Source of the DNA: Elusimicrobiota bacterium
Lineage (GTDB): Bacteria > Elusimicrobiota > Elusimicrobia > UBA1565 > UBA9628
Reading direction: 5' to 3'
Assembly (NCBI GenBank): GCA_003151975.1
Contig: PLZD01000032.1
Coordinates: 1-64,000 of the forward strand
DNA: 64,000 bases
Shown here: positions 1,886 through 17,941 of the stretch, one piece after another
Layout: each line of letters begins with the position of its first letter
Position numbering within the stretch: position 1 is the first letter of the stretch
Translations under genes and position numbers: made by a program
The notes under the pieces: model-generated
Seen by the model: the letters and a program-made list of their open reading frames with translations, nothing else
Told to the model about the DNA's origin: nothing
The model's database searches: none

Positions 1886-4036
1886 TCAGGATGAGGCCTC
1901 CTCAAAACCGCGGAGGAACTTCCCGGCCTCTTGAGGCCGCTTCGTGGGATCGGGATCGAACGCGTTGGAGAAGAAAGCGTCTAGGCCCGGCCCGAGCGAG
2001 GCGTCGCGCTCGGACGGAGGAGCGTAGATCTTCTGAAGCTTCTGCTCGAGGTAATTCGGCCCGTTGAAGGGACGAGCGCCGGTGAGCATCTCGTAGGTCA
2101 TCACGGCCAGCGCGTAGATGTCGGCGGCCTGCGACACCGAGCCGAACGCCTGCTCGGGCGCCATGTAAGGCGGGCTCCCGGAGGCCGCCGTCGTGGTCAG
2201 CGTATTGTCCCCGGAGGCTTGATGCGCGATGCCGAAATCCATGACCTTGGCGGTGCCGTCGGGCGTGATCATGACGTTGGAGGGCTTGAGGTCGCGGTGG
2301 ATGATGTGGCGGCTGTGAGCGTAGTCGAGCGCGGAGGCGACCTCGCGCAGCACGCGGCGGGCGCGCTCCACCGTAAGGCGGCCGGACTCGTCGAGAACCT
2401 TGTCGAGAGATTTTCCCTCGACGTATTCGAAGACCAGGAACAGATCGCCCTCGTTGAGCACGTTGTGGATTTCGGCGAGGTTGGGGTGCTTGAGCGCGGC
2501 GACCAAGCGCGCTTCCCGCAAGAATCTCTCGAGGTCCGCCGAGGTCGTGCGTTCGTCGCGCTTGAGCTGCTTGATGGCGACGCGACGCTGGAGAGTCTCG
2601 TCGACCGCGAGGTGGACCACTCCCATGCCGCCCCGGCCGAGCTCGCCGGTGACGCGGTAATGGCCTCCCAGGATGTCTCCCGTGGCCAGAGGGCGGCTGG
2701 CCGTCGCGGCATCCTGCATGGTCGCCGGCGCCTCGGGCTTGGGCGTCAGCAAACGCTGGGCCGTGGCGGCGCCGCGCTTAGCGGCCGCGTAGCCGAAAAA
2801 TCCCAGCACCAGCAGCGCGACGGCGCTCGCGACGGTCGGCGGGCTGATCATCTGACCGATGATCGCTTTGGGCCCGGCCGGGGGGCTGGAGACCCCGGCG
2901 CCGGCGATCAACGCCGCGATGTCCGCGTGCCCGGCGGCCTTCGCATGGTCCAAGGCGCTCAGCCCAGACTCCTCTTTGAGATTTGCGATGGCCCCTTTCG
3001 AGAGGAGCGCCGTCGCGACGCCGGTGTTTCCCCACTCCGCGGCGAGCATCAGCGGAGTCCAGCCGTGACGGTTGACCGTGTTGACGTCGGCGCCGTGCTG
3101 GATCAGCAGATTGGCGCAGGCGCCCCCGTCGTCCTTATCGAACTTCGCCGTCCAGTCCAGGGGCGTGCCGCCGTTGTCGTTTTTCTGGTTGACCGCGGCG
3201 CCGTGATCGAGCAGCAGATAGACGACGTCCTTGCGGCCGTTGCGGGCGGCCCAGTGCAGGGCGGTGGAACCCCCGGGGTCGGGCGCGTCGACGGGGACGC
3301 CGGAGTCGATCAGCGACTTGACCACCGCCGGCTGTCCCAACATCGCCGCGCAAACGATCGGCGGCAGTTTCCATTCGACGCATTTCGGGTCCAGCGCGGG
3401 CGCGGCGGCGGTCGAAGCGAAGACTGAAACGGCCGTAGCGGTCGCGGCTGCGACAGGAGTCGTCGCCGCCGCGGCCTTGGGCCCCGCGAGAATCATCGCG
3501 GCGATATCGGGATGTCCGCGCTCCGTCGCGTGGTCCCACGCGTTGTGACCACCCGAATCCTTGAGGTCGACGGTCGCACCGTGGGAGAGCAGCACCTTGA
3601 CGACATCCGCGTTCCCGAATTCAGCCGCCGTCATCAGCGGCGTCCAGCCCTCATTGTTGAGCGAATTGACGTTGGCTCGGTGCGTCACCAGGATATTCGC
3701 CGCGACGCCCCCGTCCTTAAGGTCCCACTTGGCGCACCAATTCAAAGGCGTGCCGCGATTATTGTTCTGGGCGTCGACGTCGGCGCCAAGCGACAACAGG
3801 AGGTTGATGACGTCCTTGCGCCCGTTCCGGGCGGCCCAATGCAGAGGGGTCGCTCCGCCGGGGTCCCGCGCATCCACCGGGGCCCCTTTTTGGATCAGGT
3901 CCTTGACGATGGCGGACTTGCCCTTGGAAGCGGCGCATGAGACTTCCGGCATATTCGGATCCTTGCACGTGATCGCCGCCGCGCCGTCTGCGGCCGCGAC
4001 GAGCAGGAGGATCACGACCGCGGAAAGCAGCCTCAT
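1886..4036 (-). CDS. Membrane Ser/Thr protein kinase with extracytoplasmic ankyrin repeats
   Basis: This 716-aa protein has a signal peptide (1-20), two duplicated blocks of ankyrin repeats (about 24-185 and 219-380), a transmembrane helix (about 402-419) and a C-terminal PknB-type kinase (about 458-710). The kinase is complete: GxGxxG loop GELGRGGMG, VAIK Lys489, HRD 580-582, DFG 600-602 and APE 626-628. Each ankyrin block begins with a Cys pair (C24/C34 and C219/C229). Bacterial PknB-type kinases usually have the kinase first and the sensor last; here the order is reversed, but a cleaved signal peptide plus one TM helix still puts the kinase in the cytoplasm. The ligand of the ankyrin part is unknown. 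Confidence 0.9.
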   Translation of the reverse strand: MRLLSAVVILLLVAAADGAAAITCKDPNMPEVSCAASKGKSAIVKDLIQKGAPVDARDPGGATPLHWAARNGRKDVINLLLSLGADVDAQNNNRGTPLNWCAKWDLKDGGVAANILVTHRANVNSLNNEGWTPLMTAAEFGNADVVKVLLSHGATVDLKDSGGHNAWDHATERGHPDIAAMILAGPKAAAATTPVAAATATAVSVFASTAAAPALDPKCVEWKLPPIVCAAMLGQPAVVKSLIDSGVPVDAPDPGGSTALHWAARNGRKDVVYLLLDHGAAVNQKNDNGGTPLDWTAKFDKDDGGACANLLIQHGADVNTVNRHGWTPLMLAAEWGNTGVATALLSKGAIANLKEESGLSALDHAKAAGHADIAALIAGAGVSSPPAGPKAIIGQMISPPTVASAVALLVLGFFGYAAAKRGAATAQRLLTPKPEAPATMQDAATASRPLATGDILGGHYRVTGELGRGGMGVVHLAVDETLQRRVAIKQLKRDERTTSADLERFLREARLVAALKHPNLAEIHNVLNEGDLFLVFEYVEGKSLDKVLDESGRLTVERARRVLREVASALDYAHSRHIIHRDLKPSNVMITPDGTAKVMDFGIAHQASGDNTLTTTAASGSPPYMAPEQAFGSVSQAADIYALAVMTYEMLTGARPFNGPNYLEQKLQKIYAPPSERDASLGPGLDAFFSNAFDPDPTKRPQEAGKFLRGFEEASS

Positions 4037-7509: not shown

Positions 7510-9732
7510 TTACGGCGTAAAGGGCGTGCGGTATTCGGCGCGCCGCAGCAGGGCTTTGATCCTGGCCCGCAGCAGTCGCGGGTTGAAGGGTTTAGTCAGA
7601 TAGTCGTCGGCGCCGAGCTCCAGGGCCAAGCTCTGCGACTCCGCCTCGCTCATTGCCGTCAAAATGAGGATCGGCAGTCCCAACAGTCCCATTTGACCGC
7701 GCAAGCGCTTGAGAACGCCGAAACCATCCATCTCCGGCATCATGATGTCGAGAAGCACAAGGTCGGGCTTTTCGCTTTGGATTTTTTCCAGCGCCGTCAG
7801 TCCATTTTCCGCCTCAATGAGCGCATATCCTTCGGAACCGAGAGTATCGCGAACCACGTTCCGGTTGTCGAGATTATCGTCGACGATCAGAATCCGGCGC
7901 ACATTCTTAGGCGCCGGCATGGATGCGGGAACGGCTGGCGCCGCGGGCGGTTGGGCGAGGATCGCCCGAGCCGCCGAAACGGTCGGGGGGCTTGGCAGAG
8001 ATATCTTCATCAGGGACATCGCTTCTTGGATCTCTATATCACCATGCGCCAAATGCCAGAGGATATCCTGCTCCATGGTCATCAGCCAGCCCTGCTTGAG
8101 GCATTCCGCGCGCAGGGCGGCCATGTCCGTCGTGGAAGCAAGCAAGTCTCGGGCGGCCTCGTCGCTGAGATCCAAGAGCTGCACTACGGCGGTCCGGCCC
8201 TTGAGTCCGGTAAACATGCACTTCTCGCATCCTTTGCCTTTGAATTGGCGGGCCGGCAGCCCCCATTCGTTCAATAACTCGGTCGTGAGGGCGCTGGGAT
8301 GTTCTTCGATCCGGCACTCGGTGCACGTGCGCCGGACCAACTGTTGCGAAATGATGCCGACCAGAGCCGGAGCCAGCTTGAACCGCTCGATCCCCATATC
8401 CAGAAGGCGATCGATCGTCGAGATCGCGTCGTTGGTATGGAGAGTCGAGAACACCATGTGGCCGGTCAGCGCCGCCTGGAAGGCGATATCGGCCGTTTCG
8501 CGATCGCGAATCTCGCCTACCAGCAGGACGTCGGGATCCTGACGCAGCACGGAGCGCAGCACGGCAGCGAAAGTCAGCCCCGCTTTCTCATTGACTTGGA
8601 CCTGATTGATCCCGGCCAACCGGTACTCGATGGGATCCTCGACCGTCACCACGTTGATTTTGGCCGACTTCAGTTCGTTGAGGATGGTGTAGAGGGTGGT
8701 CGTCTTCCCAGACCCGGTGGGGCCCGTCAGGAGCAGCATCCCCTTTGCTGAATGGGACAGGCGCAGCATCCGGTCGAGGATCTCAGGCCTAAATCCCATC
8801 GTCTTCAGCGACACCTGCGCCGTCCGAGGGTCCAGAATACGCAACACCGCCTTCTCGCCGAAGGCCGTCGGGATGGTGGAAACGCGCAGGCCGAATTCTT
8901 CCGTTCCCACCAGGAGCTTGGCGCGCCCGTCCTGCGGCAGGCGGCGGTCCGCCACATCGAGATTGGCCATGATCTTGAGCCGTGAGACCAGCGGGCCTTC
9001 TCCGACGCTTTTGGGAAGCGTCATCATGTTCCGCAGATCCCCGTCGATGCGATAGCGCACCGTAGTCGCGGACTCCTCCTGTTCGATATGGATATCGGAA
9101 GCATGCATGCGGACCGCCTGCGCGATGATGCCGTTGGCCAAGCGCATGATGGGGGCGGCGATCTGGATCTTATCCAAAACGGCATCTTTTTCCTTGTCCT
9201 TCGTCCCATCGTCGAGGCACTCGACCGCCAGGTCATCGGGCAGCTTTTTCAAAATGTCCCAGACCTCCGTGTCGGAGCCGTGCCCCTGCTCGATGAGATC
9301 CGTGATCCTATCCGGAAGGCCGAAAAAAGGGACCGGTCTCCTGCCGGAAATGGAAGCGGCGTCATCCAAAGCGACCATGTCGGTCGGATCGGCCATCAAT
9401 AGATCTATGTGGTCAGCGTCGACACGGAACGGGACCATCATATGCTTGCGGCACAACCGTTCCGGAATCAATGAAAGAGCCATCTGTCCCAGATCGCCGG
9501 CAGCGAGTTCATTAAAGCTGATCTTGTGCTGATCCTTTACCGCTTGAGCCAGCTGAGCTTTAGTCAGGATATTGCGGCGGAGCAGTTCCGTGGAGGCATA
9601 CGGCGCACCGCCTTGACGGAGGGATTCCACCACCGCCTTGTCCAGAAGTTGGCACGCAAGAAGGGCCCGAATAAGCCATTCATCCTTGAACGGCTGCGAA
9701 GTCACGCCGGCGACTTTCTCGTCTTTAACCAT
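7510..9732 (-). CDS. pilB: PilB/GspE-type secretion ATPase fused to a C-terminal response-regulator receiver
   Basis: This 740-aa protein has an MshEN/GspE N-terminal domain (about 15-150), a PilB-type ATPase core with Walker A GPTGSGKT (337-344), Walker B DPDVLLVGE (399-407) and STLHTNDA, and a zinc-binding Cys set (C470, C473, C502, C505). These power pilus or pseudopilus assembly. After a Pro/Ala linker (about 580-610) a complete receiver domain follows (phosphoacceptor Asp662 in LLDIMMPEMDG, switch Lys in LTKPF). Its start overlaps the stop of the upstream hybrid kinase by one base. PilB with a C-terminal receiver is unusual; phosphorylation may gate pilus extension. The gene pair looks somewhat poorer in GC than its neighbours. 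Confidence 0.92.
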   Translation of the reverse strand: MVKDEKVAGVTSQPFKDEWLIRALLACQLLDKAVVESLRQGGAPYASTELLRRNILTKAQLAQAVKDQHKISFNELAAGDLGQMALSLIPERLCRKHMMVPFRVDADHIDLLMADPTDMVALDDAASISGRRPVPFFGLPDRITDLIEQGHGSDTEVWDILKKLPDDLAVECLDDGTKDKEKDAVLDKIQIAAPIMRLANGIIAQAVRMHASDIHIEQEESATTVRYRIDGDLRNMMTLPKSVGEGPLVSRLKIMANLDVADRRLPQDGRAKLLVGTEEFGLRVSTIPTAFGEKAVLRILDPRTAQVSLKTMGFRPEILDRMLRLSHSAKGMLLLTGPTGSGKTTTLYTILNELKSAKINVVTVEDPIEYRLAGINQVQVNEKAGLTFAAVLRSVLRQDPDVLLVGEIRDRETADIAFQAALTGHMVFSTLHTNDAISTIDRLLDMGIERFKLAPALVGIISQQLVRRTCTECRIEEHPSALTTELLNEWGLPARQFKGKGCEKCMFTGLKGRTAVVQLLDLSDEAARDLLASTTDMAALRAECLKQGWLMTMEQDILWHLAHGDIEIQEAMSLMKISLPSPPTVSAARAILAQPPAAPAVPASMPAPKNVRRILIVDDNLDNRNVVRDTLGSEGYALIEAENGLTALEKIQSEKPDLVLLDIMMPEMDGFGVLKRLRGQMGLLGLPILILTAMSEAESQSLALELGADDYLTKPFNPRLLRARIKALLRRAEYRTPFTP

Positions 9733-11420
9733 TATCTGCCGCGAAACGGGTCCATGGAGACATCCTTGGGCGCGGATGCGGGAGACCGGCGGTCACCCTC
9801 GATGGTATTGAGTTTTTCAAGGAGCTCAACGCGTTTGAACGGCTTGATGAGGTAATCGGTCACCCCCAAAGCGTAGCCCAAGCTCCTATTGTCCAGAAGG
9901 GAGACCATGATGACGGGAATAGATCGCAGCTCCGGATCGCTCTTCAATATCTGGAGCACGGCCCAGCCGTCCCGGCGCGGCATCATGACATCCAGGGTGA
10001 TGGCCAACGGCTTGATTTGCCGGGCCAAGGCGATCCCTTCCTCTCCCGCGAGGGCTCCCGCGAATCCATAACCGGTGCCGTGCAGGCTGTCCCGAAGCAG
10101 GTTCAGAATCTCGGGGTCGTCGTCGATGGCTAGAAGCGTCTTATTCGGTTTACAAGAAGAAGTCATATTGAAGATCGTCGCCGTTTCGTCTTTTTCTTTA
10201 GCGCTTTCCAGGGGCAAAGCGACGGTGAACACCGTGCCGCTCCCTTCGACGCTTTCTACCTCGATGGTCCCGCCCAGAAGCTCCGCGAACTTCTTGCTGA
10301 TCACTAGACCCAGGCCGGTCCCGCCGAATTCTCGAGTCGATGAGACGTCTAATTGACGAAATTCTTGGAAGAGCAGCTTTATATCCTCGGCTTTGATGCC
10401 TATCCCGGTGTCCCGGACGCGAATTTGAACTCGTCCTGATTCGGGCGCTTGCTTGGCCTCGATGAAAACGCCGCCCATGCGGGTGAACTTGATCGCGTTG
10501 GTGATCAAATTGACCATGATCTGCTTGACCTTGGTCTTGTCGCTTCGAAGACGAAGGTCCTCCGCCATATTCCATTCCAGCTTAAGTCCTTTGGCCTGGG
10601 CCAGGATTTCCATCATGTCCAAGATTTCTCTGGACAGCTCCTTGAGGCTGAAATTCTCCAGATAGACCGGCATCCTGCCGGCTGATAATTTGGAATTATC
10701 AAGAATGCTGTTGATGACCTCCAGCAGATTGTTGCCGGCGGCCTCCACTCGCTTCAAGGATTGCTCCTGCTTCGGGGTTATTTCCCCATACACGCGATCC
10801 AAATGGAGAGCGGTGTAGCCCAGAATCGCGTTCATCGGCGTCCTCAATTCATGCCCCATGTTGTCCAACAGTTCCGACTTGAAACGGCAGATGTCGTTGA
10901 GTTCATCCACCTTGCGGCTCAGCCGGCGCTTCTCCAAGGCGCGGTCGACGATTCGAATAAGATTGTCGATCTGGAGCGGTTTGGTGATATAGTCGTAGGC
11001 GCCCAGCTTCATGCTCTGAATGGCGCTTCCCACGGTGGCATCGCCGGTCACCATGATGACTTCGATCTGCGGATCGATGCTTCTCAGAGCGCTGAGGGTA
11101 TCAAGACCGCTCCGCTTGGGCATCAGGAGGTCCAAGACCACCACATCGATATTTTTTCCTTGAGCCTTCTCGATCGCCTCGTCCCCATCGGCGGCTGCGA
11201 TGACTTGCCAGCCATGAGCCCCAAATACTCGGATCAGCAGATTGCGACAGCCGGGGTCGTCATCGACGACCAGAATTTCTGAGACCGGCTTGCCCGGCGC
11301 CGACACCGATAATGGGGCAGAGGCTAGCGCGGCGACAGTGGGTGCGGTTGGGCGATCGCTCATTTCACTCCGGTCCGAGTCCGTCATATGGATGATACTC
11401 TCTGGGCAAAATCGCGGCAA
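9732..11420 (-). CDS. Hybrid histidine kinase, REC-HisKA-HATPase-REC
   Basis: The domain order is receiver 1 (about 47-160, Asp97), HisKA with His190 in GHELRTPMNAI, HATPase_c (N308, DTGIG, GGTGLGL at 366-372) and receiver 2 (about 427-545, Asp477). There is no transmembrane segment, so it is a cytoplasmic phosphorelay kinase. The stop overlaps the start of the PilB-receiver gene by one base, so the two are co-translated and the fused receiver of PilB is the obvious phosphotransfer partner. The start is either TTG at 11420 (TATAAC lies 6 nt before it) or ATG at 11387; both leave all domains intact. Confidence 0.93.
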   Translation of the reverse strand: MPRFCPESIIHMTDSDRSEMSDRPTAPTVAALASAPLSVSAPGKPVSEILVVDDDPGCRNLLIRVFGAHGWQVIAAADGDEAIEKAQGKNIDVVVLDLLMPKRSGLDTLSALRSIDPQIEVIMVTGDATVGSAIQSMKLGAYDYITKPLQIDNLIRIVDRALEKRRLSRKVDELNDICRFKSELLDNMGHELRTPMNAILGYTALHLDRVYGEITPKQEQSLKRVEAAGNNLLEVINSILDNSKLSAGRMPVYLENFSLKELSREILDMMEILAQAKGLKLEWNMAEDLRLRSDKTKVKQIMVNLITNAIKFTRMGGVFIEAKQAPESGRVQIRVRDTGIGIKAEDIKLLFQEFRQLDVSSTREFGGTGLGLVISKKFAELLGGTIEVESVEGSGTVFTVALPLESAKEKDETATIFNMTSSCKPNKTLLAIDDDPEILNLLRDSLHGTGYGFAGALAGEEGIALARQIKPLAITLDVMMPRRDGWAVLQILKSDPELRSIPVIMVSLLDNRSLGYALGVTDYLIKPFKRVELLEKLNTIEGDRRSPASAPKDVSMDPFRGR

Positions 11421-11575: not shown

Positions 11576-11650
11576 GGCGGGGTAGCTCAGTGGTAGAGCA
11601 CCGGTCTGAAAAACCGGGTGTCGACAGTTCGATCCTGTCCCCCGCCACCA
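11576..11650 (+). tRNA. tRNA-Phe (GAA)
   Basis: The acceptor GGCGGGG pairs with CCCCGCC (11640-11646), followed by discriminator A and an encoded CCA (11648-11650). The D arm (GCTC/GAGC), the anticodon stem CCGGT/ACCGG with loop CTGAAAA (anticodon GAA) and the T arm GACAG-TTCGATC-CTGTC are all intact. It is the only tRNA gene I find in the window. A lipoprotein gene starts only 11 nt after the CCA. Confidence 0.97.
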
Positions 11651-15093: not shown

Positions 15094-16383
15094 CTAGCGG
15101 ACTAGCTTGCCCGCGTCGATCATGCCCAGGCCCTGCTCCTCGGCCGAGAGCCCTTCGACGGACTTAGCGGCCTTCTGGAGCTGAGCCAGCACGCCGTCGG
15201 GACCATCGAGGCCCCGGTAGCCCTGGGAGACCACGAGAGCGGCCAAGCCCGTGACGTGGGGCGCCGCCATCGAGGTTCCGGAGAGCGTCGCGTAGTCCCC
15301 GCCAAGCATCGACGAGTAGACCGAGACGCCGGGCGCGATGAACTTGACCTGCGGCCCGCGGCTCGAGAAAGAAGCGATCTTGTCGTTCCAGTCGCTTGCG
15401 GCCACCGCGATGGTCTCGGGATAAGCGCCGGGATAACCCACCGCCCCGCCCGAATTGCCCGCCGCCGCGACGACCACGAGGCCGCGCGCCTTGGCGTAGC
15501 GCAGAGCGCGCTGCATCGTGTCGCTCGGATTGGCCGAGCCCAAGCTCATGTTGGCGACCTGCATGCCGTGGTCGGCCGCCCAGACGATGCCCTTGATGAC
15601 GTCGCTCAAAGAGCCCGAGCCGTCCGCGTCGAGAACCTTGACCGCGTAGAGGCGCGCCTTGGGAGCGACGCCCATGAGATGCTCGGGGTCGTTGGCCGCG
15701 ATCGTGCCGGCCACATGAGTGCCGTGGCCGTTGTCGTCCTGATAGCTGCCGTCGGCCTCGGAGTCGGTGATGGCGTTGTAGCCGCCGTCCACCTTGCCCT
15801 GCAGCGACTTGTGGCGCAGGTCGATGCCCGTGTCGATGATGGCCACGCGCACCTTCTCGCCCTGGGTGTAGTCCCAGGCCGAAGGAGCCTTGACGCGCGT
15901 GATGCCCCAAGGATAGGCGCTATGAATGGAAGCGGGATGAACCGCCGAGCCGGAAGCCTTGAAGCTCTGGAGCCCGAGGGCGCCCAGCGCGGCGCCGTTA
16001 TTAATGAAGGGCGCTTCGCCGAGAGTCGCGGGGGCGTTCTCGATCCATTTCGCGGTGAAGTCTTCCTCAACGGAGGCGACGCTGGGGTCGTCCTGCGCCG
16101 TGACCGAGGCTCCGGCGCTGCCGCCGGCGTCAAAGGCGCCGAAAACGGCGGCGGCCTTGGGCGTGGCGGGAACGTCGGCGACGACCGCGATGAACTTCTT
16201 CTCTTGGTCGTTGCTCTCGATCGTGGAAACTGCGGTACCCTTGATCCCCGACAATACCTTCGCGCGAGCGGCCGCGGGCGTGCCGGCCTTGAAGGTGATG
16301 ATGACTCGTTTGGTGTTCGCCGACCACGAAGAACCCGCGGTCAGCGCGATCAGCGCGATCCAGAGCGCTAGGACTTTTTTCAT
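15094..16383 (-). CDS. Secreted subtilisin-like serine protease (S8), paralogue 1
   Basis: The 429-aa protein from ATG 16383 has a signal peptide (1-21), an inhibitor-I9-like propeptide (about 24-112) and an S8 catalytic domain (about 157-425). The triad is Asp184 (IIDTGID), His220 (NGHGTHVAG) and Ser371 (GTSMAAPH), with oxyanion Asn310 (AAAGNSGG). GGGGGGAG lies 8 bp before the ATG. A paralogue with the same plan is upstream at 16725-17912. It is expected to be exported, mature itself by removing the propeptide and act outside the cytoplasm. An open frame upstream to 16449 is judged untranslated. Confidence 0.95.
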   Translation of the reverse strand: MKKVLALWIALIALTAGSSWSANTKRVIITFKAGTPAAARAKVLSGIKGTAVSTIESNDQEKKFIAVVADVPATPKAAAVFGAFDAGGSAGASVTAQDDPSVASVEEDFTAKWIENAPATLGEAPFINNGAALGALGLQSFKASGSAVHPASIHSAYPWGITRVKAPSAWDYTQGEKVRVAIIDTGIDLRHKSLQGKVDGGYNAITDSEADGSYQDDNGHGTHVAGTIAANDPEHLMGVAPKARLYAVKVLDADGSGSLSDVIKGIVWAADHGMQVANMSLGSANPSDTMQRALRYAKARGLVVVAAAGNSGGAVGYPGAYPETIAVAASDWNDKIASFSSRGPQVKFIAPGVSVYSSMLGGDYATLSGTSMAAPHVTGLAALVVSQGYRGLDGPDGVLAQLQKAAKSVEGLSAEEQGLGMIDAGKLVR

Positions 16384-16404
16384 GTTGCAGTCTCCCCCCA
16401 GTTC

Positions 16405-16426
16405 GGCCCGGAGAGGGGTCCGGGCC
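16405..16426. other. Stem-loop in the leader of the subtilisin gene
   Basis: An 8-bp stem, GGCCCGGA with TCCGGGCC, lies 22-43 bp before the protease start. Read on the plus strand it is followed by TTTTGCCGTTCTTTT and looks like a terminator for a transcript antisense to the protease gene; read on the minus strand it is a leader hairpin just before the ribosome-binding site. Confidence 0.5.
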
Positions 16427-16561
16427 TTTTGCCGTTCTTTTACCGGCAACTACATTTTGGACGAAAGTCCCAGTTTCGCCATGAGTCAATGGGCCCAGAC
16501 GCGTCTAGGTCCAAGGACCTATGAGGTAGGCCCTTAGGGTACACCGCTTCTGGGCCTAATG

Positions 16562-16724: not shown

Positions 16725-17912
16725 CTAGCGAACTAAGACCGCGGCGTCGATCATGCCGCGGCCTTGCTCGGACGCGCTGAGGCCGATGGGCTTGGCGGCG
16801 CGCGTCAGGGCGGCGCGCACGGCGTCGATGCCGCGGTGCCCGCGCGCGACGGCCAGAGCGGCCAGGCCGGTCACGTGAGGGGTGGCCATCGAGGTGCCGT
16901 CGAAGTACTCGTAGCCGCCGCCGGGGACCGACGACTTCACGTCCACGCCGGGGGCGATGAACTCCACCTTATCGCCGCGGCTGGAGAAAGAGGCGATCTT
17001 GTCGTGCTCGTCGGAGGCCGAGACCGCGATGACGTCGGCATAGCCGCCGGGATACTCGACCTTCTTGCCGTTATTGCCGGCAGCGGCCACGAAGACCACG
17101 CCGTGCGAGGTCGCGTAATTGATCGCCAGGTGCATGAAGACGATGCCGATCGGCGAGCCGAGGCTCATGTTGGCCACCTGAATGTTGTTGTTGGCGGTCC
17201 ACAAAATCCCCTTGATGACCGAAGTGAGGTTGGCCCCGCCGTCCTTGTCGAGGACCTTCACGGCGACCAGCTTCGCCTTGGGCGCGACGCCGACGACGCC
17301 CTTGCCGTCCCAGAGCGCCGCGATCGTGCCGGACACGTGCGTTCCGTGGTGGTTATCGTCCATGCAGGACTTGCTCGCGTCGAAGGCGTTGTAGCAGCCG
17401 ACGACTTGGCCGCGCAGATCCGGGTGATTGGCGTCGATGCCGGTGTCGAGCACCGCCACGCGCACGCCCTCTCCCTGCGTCGTGGCCCAAGCCGCCGGAG
17501 CGTTGACGCGCGCGATGCCCCACGGCACCTCGGCGGGAAGAACGCCCGGCGGCAGCGCCGACGCGGAGACGACCGAGGTATTATGGAAGACGGGCGCCTT
17601 CAGCGCCCCGAAGGCGGGCTCGACGTCCTGCAGCCAGTTCACGTAAACGTCTTCTTCCACCTGAGTCACGCCGGGTTCGGTGAGTATTTTCTGCTCCATG
17701 ATCGAGAAAGGCTGGACCGGGACCTCCGCGACCACGGCGCCGAACTCGTCGAGGCTGTCGACTTGGGTCGCCCCCAAGGACTTGAGGACGTTGACGCGAT
17801 CGGAGATGCGAGCGCGCGGATCAAAACCGATGATGTAGCGTTTGGTTTGGGACGCGGCTCCGACGGGGAGAGCGGCGGCCAGCGCGAGGATGAGGATGAC
17901 GATGGACTTCAT
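16725..17912 (-). CDS. Secreted subtilisin-like serine protease (S8), paralogue 2
   Basis: The 395-aa product has a signal peptide (1-20), an I9-like propeptide (about 23-92) and an S8 domain with Asp156 (VLDTGID), His189 (HHGTHVSG), Asn280 and Ser341 (GTSMATPH). A Cys pair at 173 and 183 may form a disulphide bond. The ATG at 17912 is preferred to a GTG at 17918 because GGAGG lies 8 bp before the ATG but only 2 bp before the GTG. The layout and many catalytic-domain segments match paralogue 1, which points to tandem duplication. Confidence 0.95.
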   Translation of the reverse strand: MKSIVILILALAAALPVGAASQTKRYIIGFDPRARISDRVNVLKSLGATQVDSLDEFGAVVAEVPVQPFSIMEQKILTEPGVTQVEEDVYVNWLQDVEPAFGALKAPVFHNTSVVSASALPPGVLPAEVPWGIARVNAPAAWATTQGEGVRVAVLDTGIDANHPDLRGQVVGCYNAFDASKSCMDDNHHGTHVSGTIAALWDGKGVVGVAPKAKLVAVKVLDKDGGANLTSVIKGILWTANNNIQVANMSLGSPIGIVFMHLAINYATSHGVVFVAAAGNNGKKVEYPGGYADVIAVSASDEHDKIASFSSRGDKVEFIAPGVDVKSSVPGGGYEYFDGTSMATPHVTGLAALAVARGHRGIDAVRAALTRAAKPIGLSASEQGRGMIDAAVLVR

Positions 17913-17941
17913 GAGCACGACCTCCGTCCCAGGAGGCCGAT

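Follow-up and report, generated by a model that had tools for sequence, protein, structure and literature searches.

A PilB-type ATPase with a C-terminal receiver domain beside a hybrid histidine kinase in Elusimicrobiota: a candidate for direct phosphorylation control of a type IV filament motor

Signals are known to reach the pilus motor through transcription, cyclic dimeric guanosine monophosphate (c-di-GMP), FimX/PilZ and separate CheY-like proteins. The gene pair described here is found at positions 7510-11420 of a 64,000-nucleotide stretch (the window) of contig PLZD01000032.1 from an Elusimicrobiota bacterium, and encodes a hybrid histidine kinase and a PilB/GspE-type ATPase with a C-terminal receiver (PilB-REC). 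Among the closest described systems is EmvR of Xanthomonas oryzae pv. oryzicola, a stand-alone receiver (PMC11973254). It binds PilB, whose ATPase activity then falls by about 40%. As proposed for the window pair, a receiver domain acts on PilB directly, EmvR D59 is required and there is a link to a histidine kinase (ColS). However, EmvR, with its single domain, is a protein apart from PilB and represses it in trans, whereas in the window receiver and ATPase are one polypeptide and the kinase gene is adjacent and overlapping. In Synechocystis, the response regulator PixE (PATAN-REC) is likewise proposed to bind an extension ATPase, PilB1, and steer pilus use, but in trans, after release from a BLUF photoreceptor, with an extra PATAN domain and no fusion (PMC7690835). 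The Pil-Chp system of Pseudomonas aeruginosa uses the CheY-like receivers PilG and PilH, phosphorylated by a kinase, to control PilB localisation; it differs in its chemotaxis-type ChpA kinase, its separate receivers and its action via localisation along with FimX/PilZ (PMC12632253). By analogy, PilB-REC appears as a cis version of a control principle known in trans from EmvR, PixE and PilG. A published fusion of PilB and a receiver in cis was not found in a literature search, which had subscription journals mostly outside its reach.

The MshE ATPases, which are regulated by c-di-GMP, share both the ATPase family and the N-terminal domain with PilB-REC, and their MshEN domain binds c-di-GMP through two 24-residue RLG...Q motifs (PMC5013675). 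The PilB-RECs tested lack these motifs, and their receiver is added at the opposite end of the protein. A relaxed form of the published motif matches none of 31 PilB-RECs and matches once in the canonical PilB of the window's genome. Binding of c-di-GMP by the N-terminus of PilB-REC was therefore rejected because the motif is lost, although the genome has GGDEF proteins.

Both genes of the pair are on the reverse strand. The kinase (9732-11420, 562 amino acids, REC-HisKA-HATPase-REC, soluble; Pfam and orthologues) precedes PilB-REC (7510-9732, 740 amino acids, MshEN-T2SSE-REC; Pfam and homologues in the phylum). At the junction, AGATAATGG, the stop codon TAA and the start codon ATG have one A in common (TAATG), so that the one-base overlap reported in the first-pass annotation holds for both reading frames, and the Pfam domains agree with the architectures given there. 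The TTG start of the kinase at 11420 is a mechanical call and an ATG at 11387 is likelier. The kinase consists of an N-terminal receiver with D97 (residues 49-158, 10947-11276; Response_reg and alignment), a HisKA dimerisation and phosphoacceptor domain with H190 in the sequence HELRTP (residues 181-248, 10677-10880; Pfam and alignment), an HATPase_c catalytic domain (residues 294-405, 10206-10541; Pfam) and a C-terminal receiver with D477 (residues about 428-538, 9807-10139; a second Response_reg stretch and alignment). With a HisKA domain carrying an H-box, an HATPase_c domain and a fused receiver, it is a hybrid histidine kinase.

PilB-REC starts with a DEW motif (residues 17-19) that is typical of the family, ahead of the MshEN-type domain (residues 75-149, 9286-9510; PF05157, 1.4e-14). 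The T2SSE core (residues 192-572, 8017-9159; PF00437, 6.6e-123) has its Walker motifs and a tetracysteine zinc site, as in PilB, and retains Walker A (337-345), GEIRD (406-410) and the cysteines C470/C473/C502/C505. An Ala/Pro-rich linker of 31 residues (578-608, 7909-8001), probably disordered with a predicted local distance difference test score (pLDDT) below 50 in both AlphaFold2 models, leads to the receiver (residues 612-732, 7537-7899; PF00072, with a Response_reg match of 3.4e-29 over residues 614-726). D618/D619, D662, T692 and K714 make up a complete, canonical receiver site, in which D662 (7747-7749) is the acceptor, as first proposed. The ATPase and receiver halves are both well folded in AlphaFold2 with the low-confidence linker between them, and pLDDT in the receiver is mostly 88-97.

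It is fairly probable that this pair is a two-component system with an auxiliary PilB-type motor as its output, in which transfer from the kinase to D662 gates the motor. The fusion and the pairing carry this reading, and the first-pass annotation had pointed to both, fusions and adjacent kinases in other genomes, as one way to check it. Close homologues of PilB-REC (E <= 1e-130; some matches end at contig edges) occur in 42 of 341 genomes of the phylum, nearly all including the receiver, and those with a receiver are 43-61% identical across the full length. PilB-RECs form a single clade separate from plain PilB (44 of 45 rows, Shimodaira-Hasegawa-like approximate likelihood ratio support 100). 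The clade was recovered in a second tree sampling (24 rows at 87, 23 of these at 96), where one receiver-less sequence from Gemmatimonadota neighbours it at 98. The receiver is kept in the full-length members of the 44-sequence clade. D662, D709/D710 and K714 are invariant in 39 aligned PilB-REC receivers, D618/D619 and T692 are conserved in at least 90%, and Walker A, the Walker B region and the tetracysteine motif are invariant across the clade. Judged by sequence, the fusion of ATPase and receiver is real and old. A frame error joining two genes is ruled out, since the full-length fusion recurs in the clade. A frameshift separating receiver from ATPase in relatives, which would have spoken against the fusion, was not seen; in the sole frameshifted homologue that came to notice (G010, L252) the break is within the ATPase, whose C-terminus is still joined to the receiver.

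Fusions of the same two parts in one protein are found in other phyla, sometimes with the receiver at the N-terminus. Among the matches listed, the receiver is C-terminal in L099, L100, L102 and L114 and N-terminal in L129 and L164, mostly on separate tree branches from the PilB-RECs of the phylum. A kinase gene abuts PilB-REC in an Omnitrophota bin (L100) and REC-PilB in Myxococcota and Rhodoferax bins (L129, L164). The Myxococcota protein (L129:2926-5349), encoded between kinase and receiver genes, has the order REC-MshEN-T2SSE and ends in a double zinc ribbon.

Where the flanks could be read, 19 of 38 PilB-REC genes have a same-strand histidine kinase as direct neighbour, with a distance of at most 800 bases (room for one small receiver gene) tolerated; for plain pilB the figure is 0 of 21 (Fisher p = 3e-5). 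The p value is only indicative because the loci are related, and the plain pilB loci are mostly one conserved pilB-pilT operon. Chance neighbourhood of kinase and PilB-REC is rejected by this control. The adjacent kinases are of several types: REC-HK-REC (HK, histidine kinase), REC-HK, a 377-residue kinase immediately downstream in one family and an 872-residue kinase with a few bases of overlap. At a 20th locus the kinase is CheB-CheR-PAS-HisKA_3 and comes with a NarL-type regulator, and the clusters of some relatives additionally hold a NarL-type regulator or a helix-turn-helix (HTH) receiver. The gene pair is beyond chance, because the receiver is kept in full-length members of the clade and the two-gene neighbourhood recurs. 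As far as sequence comparison goes, the pairing of kinase and motor is better supported than could be known at the first reading, and its recurrence suggests that the motor may be switched directly by phosphorylation rather than via gene expression.

Orthologues of the window kinase were found in 25 further genomes (26 in total) with 47-67% identity. Two of the 26 loci end at contig edges, and a PilB-type ATPase adjoins the kinase in 18 of the 24 readable loci. Eight of these ATPases are PilB-RECs, including L246, where the contig stops before the receiver, and ten are receiver-less. The receiver-less partner has about 505 residues, is without the first part of the MshEN region and forms its own clade (support 99). 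One or two genes for stand-alone receivers (R1 and R2) lie before it, and in most loci a REC-GAF-HK kinase comes after it. In L238-L245, L247 and L253 (for example L240:5944-11916) these genes form a conserved signalling operon of a REC-HK-REC-REC kinase, one or two stand-alone receivers, the 505-residue PilB and usually the REC-GAF-HK kinase, sometimes near genes for a TonB-dependent receptor, ABC_sub_bind or an HTH-receiver. On the kinase tree the PilB-REC partner label changes five times, and the window kinase groups with a kinase from a receiver-less operon (97/87). The type of ATPase beside this kinase family has thus been exchanged.

The start of alpha-1 in a receiver is an established contact with the kinase. 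The stand-alone R1 receivers carry Asp-Asn-Arg (DNR) at this position, and the same motif is present in the PilB-REC receiver of the window (D622-N623-R624, 7861-7869). Across the neighbourhoods sampled, DNR is present in 17 R1 receivers, one R2 receiver and exactly seven PilB-RECs; about 115 other receivers all lack it. The seven PilB-RECs are from operons of the window kinase family or from G231, where kinase and PilB-REC are at contig ends. The PilB receiver is not supported as a stand-alone R2 receiver simply joined on, as the fused receivers group by themselves in the tree.

We infer that direct phosphotransfer from kinase to motor is the best explanation for these patterns. An upstream kinase would feed into the soluble hybrid kinase via its N-terminal receiver, and the hybrid kinase would autophosphorylate on H190 and hand the phosphate to D662. 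Direct transfer is favoured because no HPt domain was found in the window's genome with PF01627, a search that a divergent HPt could escape, and a multistep His-Asp-His-Asp phosphorelay via HPt was set aside for the same reason. The flexible linker would tether one receiver to each subunit of the hexameric ATPase. Phosphorylation may then alter the contacts of the receiver with the ATPase, be it its own ring, neighbouring subunits or a PilC-type platform, and the altered contacts would gate either hydrolysis or recruitment of the motor to a type IV filament machine, whose platform is presumably shared with the housekeeping PilB. The effect could be inhibition or activation. The N-terminus, having lost its motifs for binding c-di-GMP, would in this way be replaced as the sensing domain by the receiver.

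Several observations weigh against such a mechanism. The predicted template modelling score is 0.55-0.64, and with a low-confidence linker the models do not give the geometry of receiver docking on the ATPase. A neighbouring kinase is missing from half of the PilB-REC genes, among them two of the four in the window's genome. The kinase orthologue is without a PilB-type neighbour in six of the 24 loci, and PilB is therefore not the only possible target of the kinase. The PilB-REC of L212 is paired with the window kinase family and has its own R1, and is without DNR. The seven PilB-RECs with DNR are all in one clade, so that they represent few events and not seven. The remaining points concern the class of the ATPase, which scores below the equivalog cut-offs for both PilB (TIGR02538, 498.5 against 675.65 bits) and GspE (TIGR02533, 502.4 against 630.25 bits), with no pilus genes beside the window pair or beside the other three PilB-RECs of the genome.

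Because neither cut-off is reached, the label of "the" pilus extension motor is unjustified. The first-pass annotation had called the protein the ATPase that drives pilus extension, and this part of its reading falls: the gene is remote from any pil genes, a canonical pilB-pilT-pilC operon exists separately on contig C26, and the genome encodes about ten further PilB-like ATPases. What stands is the ATPase as a putative response regulator with a partner kinase, in view of the intact fused phosphorylation site, the association of the kinase family with PilB-type ATPases and DNR. The protein is probably an auxiliary PilB-type motor gated by the kinase, a narrower function than was first read.

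The genome holds about 21 genes of the T2SSE family, of which about 11 are PilB/GspE-like and the others PilT-like or Tad. Four are PilBs with a C-terminal receiver (in the window and on C17, C39 and C11), one has an N-terminal receiver (C34, L007) and one a GAF-like N-terminus, a label read from the sequence (C61, L010). A further regulatory fusion, a receiver-PilB-receiver protein, was noticed in G006 (C151, L074). As platforms the genome offers just three PilC/GspF proteins and one Tad pair, and none of the four PilB-RECs has a dedicated platform nearby. This imbalance is consistent with a rather unlikely alternative, that PilB-REC is a signalling subunit and not a motor. By joining the housekeeping PilB ring, or PilC, or by competing with them, it would act as a brake or poison subunit under the control of phosphorylation. 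In favour of this, too, a study of Myxococcus reports PilB as a signalling protein (PMC5544727). A brake could, however, dispense with Walker A, the Walker B region and the tetracysteine motif, which are invariant in the clade as for an active motor.

It is distinctly doubtful that the true target of the kinase is another receiver, with the adjacency of PilB-REC incidental or its receiver merely a phosphate sink. The stand-alone receivers flanking the orthologous kinases and the loci with no PilB speak for it, as does the second of the only two receivers in the window's genome with DDxxDNR, at C53:73102. On the other hand, no receiver in this genome is closely related to R1, and the nearest of its 72 matches is the PilB receiver of the window itself; the pairing with PilB-type ATPases also survives the change of ATPase type. 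That the ATPase powers type II-like secretion under the same phosphorylation control is very unlikely: the profiles of GspE and PilB score alike (502 and 498 bits), a secretin/PilM/GspE/GspF/pseudopilin-type cluster is present elsewhere in the genome and an exported FKBP-type isomerase neighbours the gene in one family, but among structures in the PDB PilB/PilF come ahead of GspE both by sequence and by fold, though by a small margin, and no secretion genes adjoin the window pair. The isomerase gene adjoins PilB-REC, usually downstream, in 15 loci of that family (L190:9367-10131 and 14 similar).

Around the pair, a tRNA-Phe gene (GAA) is found at 11576-11650 on the forward strand, just upstream of the kinase gene. 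Elsewhere in the window, on the reverse strand, a single open reading frame at 1886-4036 combines ankyrin repeats with a Ser/Thr protein kinase domain, which is unusual in bacteria, and an adjacent pair of genes at 15094-16449 and 16725-17918 encodes subtilisin-like proteases by sequence judgement.

If the kinase does gate the PilB-type motor, no signal route to a motor could be shorter than a built-in receiver with the kinase gene alongside, and the question of motor control becomes directly testable with two purified proteins. More tentatively, PilB-REC may belong to a class of type IV filament motors, widespread but undescribed, that phosphorylation gates directly. In this class a kinase module would have joined with PilB-type ATPases time and again, with the receiver either fused or a stand-alone neighbour, and several interchangeable motors per genome, each with its own kinase, would compete for few shared platforms. 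This would offer a reason for genomes with many more PilB-like ATPases than platforms.

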